The notes below the pieces were generated by a model, which did no database searches, had not been told where the DNA came from, and saw only the letters and a list, made by a program, of their open reading frames with translations. Below, piece by piece: positions 35,008 through 42,469 of a stretch of DNA of 64,000 nucleotides. Positions within the stretch are counted from its first letter, which is position 1. Every line of letters starts with the position of its first letter. The translations under genes and the position numbers were made by a program. Source of the DNA: Phycisphaeraceae bacterium (lineage in GTDB: Bacteria > Planctomycetota > Phycisphaerae > Phycisphaerales > Phycisphaeraceae); contig JANQFR010000082.1 in the NCBI GenBank assembly GCA_028277745.1, positions 124,001-188,000 of the forward strand, read 5' to 3'.

Positions 35008-36063
35008 ATGAGAAGACTCTTTGCCTTGCTTCCGGCGGCGCTTCTGCTGATCGCGTGTCAAGCCCCTCCGACGACCGGCCCGGCCGCATCCGATCCCCAA
35101 CCAACGCCGCCCGAGATGACCGAGGCCGAGCGACGCGACCTCGCGGTCAAGGAAAAGCTGCGGTCCCGGATCGATGTGTCTTTCGACCGAACCCCGCTTT
35201 CTGAGGCGTTCAAATCCATAGCGGAAGACCTCGACGTCAACATGTTTGTTGACTGGCCAAGACTCCATGCAGGCGGAGTTGCGGCCGATGAGCCGCTAAC
35301 CCTGAACCTCAAACAGATAACCGCAAAACAGGCGATCCAGTATATGCTGCGTTCGATAGGCAACGAGTTTGACCCTATAGGCTATAAAATCGATGACGAC
35401 GTCATCACGATTGGCCTCGCCCGTGATCTGCTTCACAACACCATACTGAAAACCTATGACATACACGACTTGCTTTGGCATAACGCCCGCGACCTGACGG
35501 TCATTTATCGCGACGATCTTACTACGGCCGCGGCGAAAGACTTGGCGAAATTCAAACACCAGATCGAATTCGCCCCACGACCACAACATTCTTTGTCGCG
35601 TTATTTCGGATATACGACAGACAACCTGAATCAAGGTCGTATGTATGATGATGAATCATCAGACTCGGAAACCGTCAATCGGTACGTGGCCTATCTGGAC
35701 AGCCTGATTGGAACGATTCAAGAATCTATTGGTGAACAGGAGCTGTGGGCGGCCTACGGAGGAGACATCGCTTCCATCAACGAGATGGGTAATCAACTGA
35801 TTATCCGTGCTCCCCCAGAATGGCACGAACAAATAACCGCCCTGCTGGATGATCTACGGATCAGGCAGGTGGACGCCGCGGCATTTGTGATGCGGCAGGT
35901 GGCGATCACCGACCTTTTGGCGCGCGCCGAACGTGAGCGGCGGCAGGGGCGGTACGAAGACGCCCTGCGCCTGGTGCGCGAGGCCAGGCGATTCGGTCCC
36001 GACGACCCCGCCGTGCTTGGCGCCGAACGGGTATTGCGGGGGGTGGTTAACACTCCCGAATAG
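35008..36063 (+). CDS. Lipoprotein with STN/secretin-N-like domain
   Basis: 351 aa. The lipobox LLLIACQ places Cys at residue 18. Residues about 50-130 (SRIDVSFDRTPLSEAFKSIA; LTLNLKQITAKQAIQYML) match the short STN/secretin N-terminal fold seen in many planctomycete proteins. The last 60 residues are helical (DLLARAERERRQGRYEDALR), TPR-like. TATCCT (34997-35002) is 5 bases before the ATG. Bases about 35180-35840 are noticeably more AT-rich than the ends and neighbours. Function unknown; envelope assembly or secretion is plausible. Confidence 0.7.
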   Translation: MRRLFALLPAALLLIACQAPPTTGPAASDPQPTPPEMTEAERRDLAVKEKLRSRIDVSFDRTPLSEAFKSIAEDLDVNMFVDWPRLHAGGVAADEPLTLNLKQITAKQAIQYMLRSIGNEFDPIGYKIDDDVITIGLARDLLHNTILKTYDIHDLLWHNARDLTVIYRDDLTTAAAKDLAKFKHQIEFAPRPQHSLSRYFGYTTDNLNQGRMYDDESSDSETVNRYVAYLDSLIGTIQESIGEQELWAAYGGDIASINEMGNQLIIRAPPEWHEQITALLDDLRIRQVDAAAFVMRQVAITDLLARAERERRQGRYEDALRLVREARRFGPDDPAVLGAERVLRGVVNTPE

Positions 36064-36621: not shown

Positions 36622-38016
36622 TCAACCGAGAAACGCGCGGGCGACTTTCCAGACGTCTCCTGCGCCCATCGTGACGACCAGGTCGCCCGGCCGGGCGATC
36701 ACCTGCAGCCGCTCGACAATCGCCTCGAACGGCGAGAGGTGCATCGCCTGCACGCCCGTCTCGCGCAGACGCTCCACCAGGTCCTGGGCCGTCACCGCCT
36801 GCCGCTCGGCCTCGCTGTCGCGGACAAAGTAGATCTCCGGGACGATCACCATGTCGGCCTCGCCGAAACTCACGGCGAACTGGTCCATCAGGAATCGGGT
36901 CCGTGAGTGCTGGTGCGGCTGGAAGACGCAGATGAGCCGATCCGGGCGGTAATGACGGCGTAAGGCGCGGAGGGTGGTGTCGATCTCAGTGGGGTGGTGG
37001 CCGTAGTCGTCGATCACGACCGCGCCGCCGCGCTCCCCGAGTCGCTGCATCCGCCGGTCAAGCCCGCGGAAACCGGCGACGGCGTCGGCGACGGCGTCCC
37101 ACGGCGCCCCCAGCCTGTGCGCGGTCACCGCCGCGACCGAGGCGTTGTACGCCATGTGATCGCCCGGCAACGGGTTGGGCCACGAGGCGACGATCCGGCC
37201 GTCGGGCGACCGCAGCCGCGTATGGCCGTTGACCGCCTTCACCTGCCAGTCGGCTTGGGGCGCAAAGCCGATCGTCTCCACGGCGCAATCAAGCCGGGCC
37301 GTGACCGCCAGCCGTTGCGGCGTCTCGTGATGGATCAGGAGCGATCCATCCTTGGGGACCCGCCGCGCGAAGACCGCGAACGCCTCGACGATCTCATCGA
37401 GGCCCCGATACAGGTCGAGGTGGTCGACCTCGATATTGAGGACCGTCGCGTGCGTCGGGTGAAGGTTGTGGAAGGACCGGTCGTATTCGCAGGCCTCGGC
37501 AATCAGGATGCCCGAGCCGCCGGTGCGGGACCCGCCGCCGATCTGGTCGCAGTGGGCGCCGAGGATGAACGAAGGGTCGAGCCCGGCCTGGATGAGGATA
37601 TGGCTGAGGATGGCGGTGGTAGTGGACTTGCCGTGGGTGCCGGCAACGGCAACGCCGGTGCGGCCGATCATGAGCCGGCCGAGCATCTGGGAGTACTTGA
37701 GGACCGGGACGCCGCGGCGGCGGGCCTCGGCCAACTCGGGATGGCCCGGCTTGATCGCGGCGGAGGCGACGACCAGGTCGCACGGGTCCGGGACGGCGGC
37801 CGCGGTCTGTTCCAGCACGACCGTGACGCCGTCGGCGGTCAACGCATCCACCACGGCGGACCGTTGCAGGTCCGATCCCGTGCAGACCGCGCCGAACCGC
37901 CTGGCCATGCGGGCGAGGCCCGACATCCCACACCCCCCGATGCCGACAAAATGGATCCGGGCCTGCGTGAGATCAAGCGGAGCGTGCGGATCGGACAGCG
38001 AAACGTGAGCATTCAT
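36622..38016 (-). CDS. murC: UDP-N-acetylmuramate--L-alanine ligase
   Basis: Adds L-Ala to UDP-MurNAc in peptidoglycan synthesis (cytoplasm). About 464 aa. N-terminal dinucleotide-like loop IHFVGIGGCGMSGLARM, ATP loop GTHGKSTTTAIL, central EACEYDRSFHNLHPTHATVL and C-terminal VIDDYGHHPTEI and VFQPHQHSRTRFL, all diagnostic of MurC. ATG 38016 is preferred over 38019 because TAGAAT (38024-38029) lies 7 bases upstream; neither has a ribosome site. It stands apart from other mur genes. Its presence shows a peptidoglycan-making planctomycete. Confidence 0.96.
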   Translation of the reverse strand: MNAHVSLSDPHAPLDLTQARIHFVGIGGCGMSGLARMARRFGAVCTGSDLQRSAVVDALTADGVTVVLEQTAAAVPDPCDLVVASAAIKPGHPELAEARRRGVPVLKYSQMLGRLMIGRTGVAVAGTHGKSTTTAILSHILIQAGLDPSFILGAHCDQIGGGSRTGGSGILIAEACEYDRSFHNLHPTHATVLNIEVDHLDLYRGLDEIVEAFAVFARRVPKDGSLLIHHETPQRLAVTARLDCAVETIGFAPQADWQVKAVNGHTRLRSPDGRIVASWPNPLPGDHMAYNASVAAVTAHRLGAPWDAVADAVAGFRGLDRRMQRLGERGGAVVIDDYGHHPTEIDTTLRALRRHYRPDRLICVFQPHQHSRTRFLMDQFAVSFGEADMVIVPEIYFVRDSEAERQAVTAQDLVERLRETGVQAMHLSPFEAIVERLQVIARPGDLVVTMGAGDVWKVARAFLG

Positions 38017-38270
38017 CATGAAGATTCTATCGGCCAAGTGGAGCTTTTCCTGTGACTTGGAACCGAGCTGAATATGTAAGCGTCATGGAGGCGGCTTCAC
38101 CGGTTCCTCGTTGATCGCCAGTGACGACCCGGTCGGCTCGAAAGCACCCTCCACCGACAACGTCGATTTCTTCGATTCTGGTTTTAACCCGATTCCAATC
38201 ACCGACAAACATGAAATGCATGGAGCAAAGATTAACTCGACACGCAATATATGAACACCGGATTTAAGAA

Positions 38271-39035
38271 ATGATTATCGACGCCACGAACTATACCGGG
38301 AAGCCCCAAAGCGGCGCGCTCTCGCCATGCAAGTCGGTTTATCAAGGCGAGATCTGGGGAGACGCCTGGCCTAATGCAGGACAGACAGGTGAGCTTCCCG
38401 ATGAAACGCGCTTGAAGTCCATTGCATCCGCTTGGCCGACCGATCGCATCACATGGCTCAACATTGAGCACCGCCCTCTGAACAACACTTTTAATTCACG
38501 CACAGACAGCGAAATCAAGACGAACATCGCCTGGATGATCCAGATCCTTGAGTGGTGCAAAGAGGCTAACCCAAGTCTGGCCCTGGGTATCTACTCAGGG
38601 TTGTTTCAGGATGAGGGTGGCTCCATCGGAGCGGTCGACTCCAAGATCGCAACGGATGACGCCAGGATTGTGTCGGAAGGCATCCTCGATGTCGTTGATT
38701 TTGTAGCGCCTTCGTTCTACGACCGATACGACACCGACATGGGGCAATGGGGCCGACGGGCCCACCGCATGCTCTCCCGCATCCGAGCCGCCACCGACCT
38801 GCCCATTTATCCCTTCCTGTGGGATCACTATCATGATGCGCATTCCAACTCAGATCTGCGTTTACAACCACTCGACCCGATCTACTACAGCAAACAGGTA
38901 GGCCTATGCCTAAACATCGCCGACGGCGCGATCCTCTGGTCACACCCTACCGGCTGGACCCTTGATGATGATGCATGGTTAAGCCGGATCGAATCCATTG
39001 AACATCAGCACAGAACGGGAAGTTTATTAACATGA
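38271..39035 (+). CDS. TIM-barrel-like protein of unknown function
   Basis: 254 aa with no signal peptide. The pattern of strands ending in acidic or aromatic residues (MIIDATNY, ITWLNIEHRPLN, LALGIYSGLF, DVVDFVAPSFYDRYD, LPIYPFLWDHYHD, GAILWSHPTGW) suggests a (beta/alpha)8 barrel of glycosidase type, with Glu in NIEH as a possible catalytic residue. I do not recognise the family. Codon use is visibly more AT-rich than in flanking genes, and the stop overlaps the start of the LamG-like gene (ATGA). Together they look like a laterally acquired or phage-derived pair. Confidence 0.6.
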   Translation: MIIDATNYTGKPQSGALSPCKSVYQGEIWGDAWPNAGQTGELPDETRLKSIASAWPTDRITWLNIEHRPLNNTFNSRTDSEIKTNIAWMIQILEWCKEANPSLALGIYSGLFQDEGGSIGAVDSKIATDDARIVSEGILDVVDFVAPSFYDRYDTDMGQWGRRAHRMLSRIRAATDLPIYPFLWDHYHDAHSNSDLRLQPLDPIYYSKQVGLCLNIADGAILWSHPTGWTLDDDAWLSRIESIEHQHRTGSLLT

Positions 39036-39691
39036 TTCTTCGATCTCTTATCCTATCTTACCTGCCCGATGCGTACCTGCCATTCGACTGCGGCGGAAAG
39101 GATTTGATCAACAGCGACTGGACGCTCACCGGGTCGCACGCTAAGCGGCAACCAAGCATGCTGCCTAATTCAGACGATTCGATCGGTTTCACCGGCGGAT
39201 ACGCCAGCGCTCCCGACGGCGGGATCGGCGATTACCCGGGACGCTCCCCATTCAGCCTGCACTTTATCATCAATCGCTCGAACACGAATGAAGACACCTA
39301 CCGCCGGGTCCTTTCCAAGGAAACAGCACCCATCATCGGGTGGTGGGTCAACCTCACAAGCACATCCGATGCAATCCCTAACAGGATCGTCATGGCGCGC
39401 CGAACCAGTGCGTTCACTACGGTCAGCGGGCCCGTGCTAACGGCGGGCGTTTCCTATCAAGTTGTATTTACATACGACGGCGACCATATGAAGGTGTATA
39501 TCGACGGGGCTTTGTATGACTCTGCTGAATCCTCCCAAAGCCTGGGGGATTCGTCATCGGTCGCCGCAAAGATCGCCGCCAGGGGTTTCGACGCCGCCCA
39601 CAGATTCCAAGGCCTCATCGATGAGGTGGCGTTATTCTACTACGCCTTAACCGCCGATCAGGTTACTGATTTACGCCACGCATCGTTTTAG
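39032..39691 (+). CDS. LamG/concanavalin-like lectin-fold protein
   Basis: 219 aa. The fold is indicated by PFSLHFIINRSN, YQVVFTYDGDHMKVYIDGAL (typical LamG/Laminin_G_3 hairpin) and AHRFQGLIDEVALFYYALTA near the C-terminus, a hallmark ending. The N-terminus is hydrophobic but not a clear signal peptide. It is translationally coupled to the preceding gene (4-base overlap). Such domains bind glycans and also occur in phage tail-tip and fibre proteins. Confidence 0.8.
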   Translation: MILRSLILSYLPDAYLPFDCGGKDLINSDWTLTGSHAKRQPSMLPNSDDSIGFTGGYASAPDGGIGDYPGRSPFSLHFIINRSNTNEDTYRRVLSKETAPIIGWWVNLTSTSDAIPNRIVMARRTSAFTTVSGPVLTAGVSYQVVFTYDGDHMKVYIDGALYDSAESSQSLGDSSSVAAKIAARGFDAAHRFQGLIDEVALFYYALTADQVTDLRHASF

Positions 39692-39738
39692 CCGAACGCG
39701 ATGTGAGCCGGCATGATTGAAGACGCGTGGCGGATGCT

Positions 39739-41781
39739 TCAAACCGGGGCCAACACCAGGGCGCTGCGCGCGGGCAGGTACACCTGGACGCTCTGCTTGC
39801 AGCCGTACATCGGCTCGGGCCGCCAGATGTATCTCGAATCCGGATCGACGCGGCCCTGGCCGTCGAAACGCTCCGCGTCGGTGTCCAGCGCGAGCCGGTA
39901 GTCACGGGCGTCGGGCACGGGGATGCGCAGGTCGGTGTACGACTCAGCCGGGTGGAGGTTGACCACGAAGACTAACGGGCCGCGCCGATAGATTAGCTGC
40001 TTGGTGTCCTGATGGCAGGCGAGTTGTTCGATGAAAGGATCGGACAGGACGTGGTAATCCGCATCGAGCCGCATCATCGCCTGATCGAACCGGTTCAAAC
40101 CCTTGTAGCGGAGGTGGTCCTGCTCGATCAGCGACCACTGCCGCCGGGCGTAGTGGTAGCTGTCGTTGTTGCCTTCGCGGGGGAAATCGATCCACTCGGG
40201 GTGGCCGAACTCGTTGCCCATGAAATTCAGGTAGGCCTCCCCGGCGAGCGAGAACGTGAGCAGGCGGATGATCTTGTGCAGGGCCAAGCCCCGGTCGATG
40301 ATCAGGTTCTGCTGGAAAACGCTCATGCCGGCGTACATGTCCGCGTCCATGAGGCGGAACGCGATCGTCTTGTCGCCGACGAGCGCCTGGTCGTGCGACT
40401 CGGCGTAGCCGACGTGCTTCTCGTTGCGGCGGCGGTTCATCAGCGTGAAGAAGATGTTGCCCAGGTCCCAATCCTCGTCGCTCTTCTCCTTGAGCAGCTT
40501 GATCCAGTAATCGGGCACGCCCATGGCGAGGCGGTAATCAAACCCCAGTCCGCCGTCGTCGATCGGCCGCGCCAGGCCCGGCATACCTGAGACGTCCTCG
40601 GCGACCGTGACCGCCCGGGGGTTGACGGCGTGCGCCAGTTCGTTGGCGAGGGTGAGGTATGTCACCGCGTCGGCTTCGACGTTGGGACCGAAATAGTCGT
40701 CGTAACCCTCGAACGATTTGCCCAGGCCGTGGTCGTGGTAGAGCATGGAGGTGACGCCGTCGAACCGGAAGCCGTCGAACCGGTATTCATCGAGCCAGTA
40801 GCGGACATTGGAGAGCAGGAGCCGGAGGACCTCGTACTGGCCGTAGTCGTAACAGAGCGAGTCCCAGGCGGTGTGTTCCCCGCGGGGCCCGGGGTGGAAG
40901 TATTGATGATCCGAGCCGTCGAAACGGTTGAGGCCCTCGGCCAGGTTCTTGACCATATGCGAATGGACGATGTCCATGATGACGCACAGCCCCAGGCGAT
41001 GGGCCTCGTCGATGAGCTGCTTGAGCTCGTCGGGCGTGCCGAAGCGCGACGAGACGGCGAAGAGGTTCGAGACGTGGTAGCCGAACGATCCGTAGTAGGG
41101 GTGCTCCTGCACGGCCATGAGTTGAACGGCGTTGTAGCCCAGGTCGGCGATGCGGGGCAGGACGTTGGCGGCAAACTCGGCGAACGACCCGACCTTGCCC
41201 TCTTCCTGCGCCATGCCGACGTGGGCCTCGTAGATGCGCAGACCGCCTTCAAGCGCAGGCGCATCGTGGCGCCACCGGTACGGCTGGGGCGGAGCCCAGT
41301 AGCGGCCGTTGTACTCGGACGAGCCGGGCTCCTGGACCACACGCCTGATGTATGCGGGGATCCGGTCCATCGCATACCCGGGGGCGGCGACATGCACCTT
41401 GATCCTGGAATCGTGGGTCAGTCGGTCGGCGTACTGCTCGTCCGGCAGGAAGAGCGACCAGTGGCCGAATTCATTGCGTGAGAGCGGATGGGCGCCGCGG
41501 TCCCATTGATTGAAATCGCCGATCAGCGCGAGATAGTCAGCATTGGGGGCCCACTCGCGATACCAGACGCCGGGCCGGCCTTCGTGTTCGTCGCGGGTGA
41601 GCCCAAAGTACGCGTGGCCGCGGCTGATCGCGCCGGTGAGCGCTCCGTCTTCGGCCGTGATCCGCCGCCTGGTCTCAAGGTATCGGCGATAGCGGGCCCG
41701 CAACGCGTCAGCGAACGGTTCGAGATACGGGTCGCCCTGAATCAGGGCCGAGCCATCGGGTTGCTTCTTCTTCCTGGGCAT
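39739..41781 (-). CDS. glgB: 1,4-alpha-glucan branching enzyme, eukaryote-like type
   Basis: 680-aa GH13 branching enzyme of glycogen synthesis. N-terminal CBM48-like region (YREWAPNADYLALIGDFNQW). Catalytic motifs: GFRFDGVTSMLYHDHG (nucleophile Asp), TVAEDVSGMPG (acid/base Glu) and GYAESHDQALVG. The stretch MGNEFGHPEWIDFPREGNN and the HYARRQW after it are those of eukaryotic GBE1/GH13_8 enzymes rather than the common bacterial GH13_9 type. ATG 41781 is chosen because the longer frame would overlap the divergent rdgB start. No other glg genes are adjacent. Confidence 0.93.
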   Translation of the reverse strand: MPRKKKQPDGSALIQGDPYLEPFADALRARYRRYLETRRRITAEDGALTGAISRGHAYFGLTRDEHEGRPGVWYREWAPNADYLALIGDFNQWDRGAHPLSRNEFGHWSLFLPDEQYADRLTHDSRIKVHVAAPGYAMDRIPAYIRRVVQEPGSSEYNGRYWAPPQPYRWRHDAPALEGGLRIYEAHVGMAQEEGKVGSFAEFAANVLPRIADLGYNAVQLMAVQEHPYYGSFGYHVSNLFAVSSRFGTPDELKQLIDEAHRLGLCVIMDIVHSHMVKNLAEGLNRFDGSDHQYFHPGPRGEHTAWDSLCYDYGQYEVLRLLLSNVRYWLDEYRFDGFRFDGVTSMLYHDHGLGKSFEGYDDYFGPNVEADAVTYLTLANELAHAVNPRAVTVAEDVSGMPGLARPIDDGGLGFDYRLAMGVPDYWIKLLKEKSDEDWDLGNIFFTLMNRRRNEKHVGYAESHDQALVGDKTIAFRLMDADMYAGMSVFQQNLIIDRGLALHKIIRLLTFSLAGEAYLNFMGNEFGHPEWIDFPREGNNDSYHYARRQWSLIEQDHLRYKGLNRFDQAMMRLDADYHVLSDPFIEQLACHQDTKQLIYRRGPLVFVVNLHPAESYTDLRIPVPDARDYRLALDTDAERFDGQGRVDPDSRYIWRPEPMYGCKQSVQVYLPARSALVLAPV

Positions 41782-41818
41782 GCGCGTGGATCCTTGAATG
41801 CCGCTACGATACCGCGCC

Positions 41819-42469
41819 ATGAAGATCTTGCTCGCCACCACCAACCCTCACAAGTTCGACGAAATCCGGGCGGTGATGAACGACCCGTCTCTCGAGTGGA
41901 TGACCCTGAGTGATTGGCCCGACCCGATCGAAGAGCCGGTGGAGGACGGCGCCACCTTCGAAGACAACGCGGCGCTCAAAGCCAGGTATTACGCCCAGGC
42001 GACCGGCTTGGCGACGCTGGCGGACGACAGCGGCCTGGAAGTCGACGCCCTCGACGGCCGGCCCGGCGTCCACAGCGCCCGGTACTCCGGCAAACAGGGC
42101 TCACGTGAAACCGTCGACCTGGCCAATAACCGGAAACTCCTCAACGAGATGCGCGGCAAGGTGAACCGCGCCGCACGGTTTGTGTGCGCCATGGCCGTGC
42201 ATCGGCCGGGCGACGACCGGCCCTGGGCGATGGTGCGGGGCACGATCGAGGGACGCATCCTGTCGACGGACGAGCTCGACCCGGCCAGCCCGGAGCGGGG
42301 CCGGGGCGGGAACGGGTTCGGATACGACCCGCTGTTCCAGCTCGACGCCATGGGCAAGACCACCGCGGAGCTGGAGCCGGACCACAAGAACCGTATCAGC
42401 CACCGGGGCAACGCCGCGCGGGACATGTGGCGGCAACTGCGATTGCTGATCAAGTCCGGCGAGCAGTGA
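41819..42469 (+). CDS. rdgB: Non-canonical purine NTP pyrophosphatase (RdgB/HAM1)
   Basis: Hydrolyses dITP and XTP to monophosphates, cleaning the nucleotide pool. 216 aa. Motifs: LLATTNPHKFDEI (start), FEDNAALKARYYA, ADDSGLEVDALDGRPGVHSA (catalytic Asp) and GFGYDPLF...ISHRGNA. ATG 41819 is supported by the conserved N-terminus and by TACGAT (41805-41810) 8 bases upstream. Divergent from glgB with 37 bases between start codons. Confidence 0.95.
   Translation: MKILLATTNPHKFDEIRAVMNDPSLEWMTLSDWPDPIEEPVEDGATFEDNAALKARYYAQATGLATLADDSGLEVDALDGRPGVHSARYSGKQGSRETVDLANNRKLLNEMRGKVNRAARFVCAMAVHRPGDDRPWAMVRGTIEGRILSTDELDPASPERGRGGNGFGYDPLFQLDAMGKTTAELEPDHKNRISHRGNAARDMWRQLRLLIKSGEQ

Follow-up and report, generated by a model that had tools for sequence, protein, structure and literature searches.

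An AT-rich gene pair between murC and glgB of a Phycisphaeraceae bacterium encodes a GH56-related barrel and a LamG-type protein

Here we describe two overlapping genes found in a 64,000-nucleotide stretch of a Phycisphaeraceae contig (JANQFR010000082.1), the whole of the DNA that was analysed, which we call the window. Two Pfam-confirmed genes on the minus strand, murC (36622-38037) and glgB (39739-41844), flank the pair, and the gap between them is occupied by two overlapping genes on the plus strand: ORF1 (38271..39035, 254 amino acids), a bare barrel related to the GH56 hyaluronidases, and ORF2 (39032..39691, 219 amino acids), a stand-alone Laminin_G_3 (ConA-like) domain. The stop codon of ORF1 and the start codon of ORF2 overlap in the four bases ATGA (39032..39035, plus strand), an arrangement that suggests possible coupled translation. 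Neither protein has a signal peptide. An in-frame TAA (38265..38267, plus strand) lies two codons 5′ of the ORF1 ATG, so neither an N-terminal extension nor a signal peptide is possible for ORF1 in its frame, and an in-frame TGA (38999..39001, plus strand) 11 codons 5′ of the ORF2 ATG likewise leaves ORF2 no longer N-terminus in frame and hence no signal peptide.

In composition the pair stands apart from its flanks. GC content is 0.548 in ORF1 and 0.559 in ORF2, compared to 0.686 in murC and 0.642 in glgB; GC3 is 0.643 and 0.673, compared to 0.877 and 0.862; and the codon-adaptation index is 0.454 and 0.464, compared to 0.745 and 0.751. The two have the lowest GC among the 51 listed ORFs of the window that are at least 150 amino acids long. 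Another low-GC ORF, with a TPR match, lies at 35008-36063 in high-GC surroundings (GC 0.565, GC3 0.636, codon-adaptation index 0.471).

No sigma-70-like promoter was seen in the sequence 5′ of ORF1, where the longest open frame runs for 60 codons (38072-38251). Searches for a relative of this frame in 50,697 phage records and in the 60 remaining genomes of a set of 61 found none; since frames of this length are not rare by chance, we rejected it as a third gene. Remnants of the N-terminal part of a paralogue from the same genome, described below, were sought in this upstream stretch and none were found. The ten neighbours of the pair scanned against Pfam comprise murC, glgB, a Ham1-like gene, a sigma-54 regulator and others, with no exopolysaccharide gene and no phage gene among them. 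There is no tRNA in the 64-kb window, and no long or convincing direct or attachment repeats flank the pair.

Judged from its sequence, ORF2 is an ordinary LamG-type domain: it matches Laminin_G_3 (PF13385) with an E-value of 2.4e-16 and 60.7 bits, against a gathering cut-off of 27.6, and covers nearly the whole profile (5-150 of 151). It stands alone, whereas in most of the listed relatives from the order the match lies within a larger open frame. The best PHROG for ORF2 is a virion structural protein (7.9e-5); there was no match in INPHARED and no relative in IMG/VR. LamG domains are typically extracellular. A sequence-only reading of this DNA had described a pair AT-rich and odd in its codons beside murC and glgB, joined by an ATGA overlap, preceded by nothing recognisable and ending in a LamG protein, and our results agree with it on all of these points.

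That reading had also held that the barrel protein matched no family, and here the outcome was different. By itself ORF1 has no match in Pfam, NCBIfam or PHROGs, and none to the GH56 profile PF01630 above the gathering score, but the family to which it belongs tells more. A profile of 16 family members searched against the PDB found bee venom hyaluronidase (1fcq) at 1.3e-7, and a profile of 62 members found 1fcq at 1.1e-12, human HYAL1 (2pe4) at 2.1e-8, the wasp enzyme (2atm) at 2.8e-8 and PH-20 (9jub) at 9.3e-6, with the next entry at 0.06. The 62 rows of this alignment are ORF1 and 61 of 87 non-redundant loci rows. Conversely, PF01630 matches 4 of the 16 members (E-values up to 5, the best 8.9e-7) and 25 of the 62 (E-value at most 0.001, the best 8.7e-13). 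Together, the PDB matches and the PF01630 matches in family members rule out the label "unknown family" for ORF1.

The fold agrees, on evidence that comes from a single predicted model of ORF1 (AlphaFold, pLDDT 84, pTM 0.84). With this model as query, the first five Foldseek rows are all GH56 (E-values 3.1e-6 to 8.7e-6, TM about 0.53-0.57 on the query), and six GH56 chains head the VIA-align results with Z of 17.4-18.9 and an rmsd of 3.2-3.3 over 236-245 residues, the first row from outside the family being GH164 with Z 13.3. A viral structure library returned scattered glycoside hydrolases and other barrels, the best at 6.1e-5. The fold search that the sequence-only reading had proposed for the 254-residue protein thus ranks GH56 chains first, and its picture of a glycan-active-looking protein of TIM-barrel type, paired with a LamG protein, is supported.

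GH56 is described as the family of the mammalian and venom hyaluronidases (PMC11669647 and PMC12254123, in the parts available to us), and ORF1 has in common with it the barrel fold, the Glu donor and the Tyr and Trp residues of the cleft, while the order of motifs, DxE, GYY, PSxY and IWG, is common to GH56 and the ORF1 family. At the same time, identity in the structural alignments is only 11-15%, and ORF1 differs in being bacterial, in lacking a signal peptide and a PF01630 match of its own, and in carrying Asn in place of an Asp. ORF1 is a member of a bacterial family related to the GH56 hyaluronidases; we file it as GH56-related and not as a GH56 member because this Asn, residue 64, replaces the Asp of the catalytic pair. 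We found no report of this bacterial GH56-related branch in the literature searched, a search that had subscription journals and CAZy outside its range.

The residues of the putative active site can be placed one by one on the plus strand. Asn64 (38460..38462) stands where GH56 enzymes have the Asp of their catalytic pair, a position at which 57 of the 62 members have Asp and five have Asn: ORF1, its paralogue L002, L016, the viral-contig member L020 and L026 (such labels denote family loci). Two residues on, Glu66 (38466..38468), the putative proton donor, is present in 62 of 62 members, as is Tyr150 (38718..38720); Tyr108 (38592..38594) is Tyr in 57 of 62 and Trp223 (38937..38939) is Trp in 60 of 62. 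The 16-member profile aligns the GYY, PSxY and IWG motifs of the bee enzyme with their family counterparts, and the 62-member profile aligns the family's DiEhW with the DFERW of 2atm, that is, the motif holding Glu66 with the wasp DxE, in a weak separate stretch. We take Tyr184, Tyr227 and Trp301 to be active-site residues of the bee enzyme. In the wasp enzymes, Asp107 and Glu109 form the catalytic pair, and Tyr180, Tyr223 and Trp296, the counterparts of the bee residues, are named as well (PMC6892566, in the passages available).

In the accessible part of one account of GH56 (PMC12254123), the Glu donates a proton while the N-acetyl group of the substrate attacks the anomeric carbon. By analogy, Glu66 of ORF1 would protonate the oxygen of the glycosidic bond, and the nucleophile, in a retaining, substrate-assisted reaction, would be the substrate's N-acetyl group, with Tyr108, Tyr150 and Trp223 lining the cleft. 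The substrate would be a polymer with beta-linked N-acetylhexosamine, presumably held by ORF2, and the two proteins might act in the cytoplasm, or outside the cell after lysis. The activity of ORF1, its substrate, its cooperation with ORF2 and the place where the two act are all inferred. Asn64 may weaken or alter catalysis; the double mutant D107N/E109Q of the wasp enzyme is dead, which is why we think that activity in ORF1 may be low or lost, the effect of the single change not being given in the same passages (PMC6892566).

Distribution of the family is patchy. ORF1 is matched in 13 of the 101 genomes of the relatives search, in which the genome of the window itself proved to carry a second copy, in 14 of 397 genomes sampled from the class and in 5 of 392 sampled from the phylum; a three-row profile finds matches in 32 of 301 genomes sampled from the order. 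Scanning genome contigs yielded 70 family loci, among them loci of Nitrospira, Mesorhizobium and gammaproteobacteria. There was no match to ORF1 in INPHARED or in plasmids. At the loci that were read, no relative lies between murC and glgB. That site cannot be compared across relatives because the adjacency itself is not conserved: GlgB has a long match in six relatives (55-71% identity, from 61 genomes), and none of these has MurC nearby. The suggestion that the pair is a laterally acquired, glycan-active module is a reasonable one, the composition being alien and the distribution patchy (the 14 of 397 genomes above); homologues at this locus throughout the Phycisphaerae, with native codon usage, which the sequence-only reading had named as the finding that would count against it, were not what we found.

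Where the family does occur, its neighbours point to polysaccharide synthesis. At 36 loci chosen by hand from the 70, no more than two ORFs were taken per side, each 150 amino acids or longer, and after proteins above 700 amino acids were dropped, and with some sides short of genes, 131 proteins of at most 144 were kept. Among them are 18 matches to Glycos_transf_1, 12 to Exosortase_EpsH, 12 to DUF3485 and 5 to Wzy_C, as raw counts without a background set and with some of the ORFs probably spurious. The DUF3485 matches, which we take to be EpsI-type, and those to Exosortase_EpsH may come from the same fused proteins. Exosortase homologues have been described near exopolysaccharide genes (PMC1569441, in the part available). 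Most relatives of ORF1 also look exported: using hydropathy as a proxy for a signal peptide, and with nine partial or edge rows set aside, a hydrophobic stretch lies 5′ of the domain in 75 of 87 full members. At some loci the barrel takes other forms. Two Nitrospira copies (L048, L083) have it split over two reading frames, and L055, L084 and L088 have tandem or neighbouring duplicates; L089:4881-6461 is signal-less with RTX-like GGND repeats at its C-terminus by eye, and so possibly subject to type I secretion, and L087:4986-6230 is signal-less with a C-terminal tail that looks carbohydrate-binding by eye and has no Pfam match.

The 12 members without a hydrophobic stretch include ORF1 and all four complete rows from viral contigs, a ratio of 4 of 4 against 8 of 83 for the others. 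The chance of this in a random draw is about 495/2,225,895, or 2.2e-4, for rows that are not independent. Five viral contigs (L020, L021, L022, L104 and L156) carry a family member near phage genes named by PHROGs: tail terminator, major tail and tape measure genes in L020, portal in L021, terminase in L022, head closure in L104 and terminase in L156. A further row, L019, comes from a contig of 168,789 bases of putative viral nature. The phage gene directly 5′ of the barrel in L020 (L020:905-2320) has a GDSL lipase-type domain, and its N-terminal part looks ConA/LamG-like by eye, with no Pfam match. A missing signal peptide is nevertheless no proof of phage origin, since signal-less bare barrels also occur in bacteria. 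In g67, another genus of the order, open frames of 248-266 amino acids that encode bare barrels occur in six genomes, which suggests that a signal-less form is maintained there, and two of the barrels, L014 and L028 (L100:9771-10514 and L101:8870-9619), adjoin an NAD-synthetase-like gene by eye, with no phage gene recognised in the stretches read.

The nearest relative of ORF1 is the paralogue L002 in its own genome, a protein of 406 amino acids. Like ORF1, it is AT-rich and has Asn in the motif, and the two are 33% identical; unlike ORF1, it carries a dockerin as well as a hydrophobic leader, it lies beside two glycosyltransferases and a protein that matches Wzy_C weakly, and it has no LamG gene among its scanned neighbours. 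These four genes of the L002 locus have GC of 0.53-0.57 and GC3 of 0.58-0.59 among ORFs mostly above 0.63 GC, values by which the odd composition of ORF1 and ORF2 resembles this locus and lies nearer to it than to the host. This AT-rich exopolysaccharide locus, with its glycosyltransferases, Wzy-like gene and barrel with dockerin, lies at L018:6532-11439. ORF1 groups with L002 with bootstrap values of 96-99, at 99/98 in an 88-row tree and at 96/94 in a 44-row tree, the latter made after 18 of the 62 alignment rows, chosen by hand for long branches or redundancy, were left out. The ORF1 branch is long, 1.49 in the larger tree and 2.16 in the smaller, and AU tests give p 0.267 for ORF1 grouped with L019, 0.325 for the grouping with L020 and 0.277 for that with the four viral rows together, so that none of these is rejected.

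The explanation that we favour, with moderate confidence, is that ORF1 is a diverged, de-secreted member of a GH56-related family that is usually exported from exopolysaccharide, often exosortase, loci, and that ORF2 is its lectin-like partner. ORF1 and the exported L002 would share an AT-rich source, ORF1 having been reduced to a bare barrel and paired with the LamG-type, glycan-binding ORF2. Counted against this are the odd position of a glycan hydrolase and a lectin in the cytoplasm with no obvious substrate, the lack of a Pfam, NCBIfam or PHROGs match for ORF1 alone, Asn64, the long branch, the AU results and a locus without an exopolysaccharide gene: ORF1 lacks both the export signal and the polysaccharide neighbours of the usual form.

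The main rival, which we regard as possible though clearly less probable, is that the pair is a remnant or domesticated copy of a virion- or tail-associated glycan depolymerase, a bare barrel, together with a ConA-like binding protein; signal peptides would be missing because delivery is by the particle. Members in phage structural regions, the signal-less viral rows, the virion structural PHROG of ORF2 and two AT-rich, overlapping and isolated genes all speak for this, as do the barrels of L020 and L022, which like ORF1 are bare, signal-less and about 230-255 amino acids long. These two, however, sit inside phage structural gene clusters and are 21-29% identical to ORF1, and the best trees place ORF1 with L002 and not with them or the other phage rows. 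Against it as well are the ten scanned neighbours with no phage gene, the window with no tRNA, the pair with no long flanking direct repeat, neither ORF matched in INPHARED nor ORF2 in IMG/VR, and the signal-less g67 barrels L014 and L028, which have no phage context. For the earlier suggestion of a tail-fibre-type module the evidence points both ways: signal-less relatives are present among the structural genes of phages, but the neighbours, the INPHARED search and the best trees speak against it; with AU values of 0.27-0.33 it is possible but not favoured.

It is unlikely that the pair is without function and decaying after lateral transfer or duplication. The long branch, Asn64, the missing export signal and the lack of a promoter-like site upstream would fit such decay, but two intact overlapping frames, the retained invariant residues and a confident model of ORF1 do not. 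More doubtful again is a function in the cytoplasm like the one that the g67 barrels may have, for instance to trim or sense a glycan intermediate, for although those bare barrels occur in six genomes, two beside an NAD-synthetase-like gene, and ORF1 retains Glu66, Tyr108, Tyr150 and Trp223, ORF1 does not group with L014 and L028 in the 88-row tree, no conserved metabolic partner gene lies nearby, and LamG domains, as noted, usually work outside the cell.

A broader proposal, which we put forward tentatively, is that the barrel of the animal hyaluronidases has a large prokaryotic branch of exported, often exosortase-linked hydrolases of polysaccharide loci, that phages have acquired it as signal-less depolymerases, and that the pair in the window is a split enzyme-plus-lectin module exchanged between phage and host. 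In itself the pair matters little, being a single poorly connected pair of genes in a single genome, although it turns from an orphan into a testable hydrolase and lectin. More interesting is the GH56-related branch of bacteria and phages in polysaccharide loci: if broad and linked to polysaccharide synthesis, such a branch would place this fold in a prokaryotic context and would supply candidate enzymes with which to cut the exopolysaccharides of bacteria.
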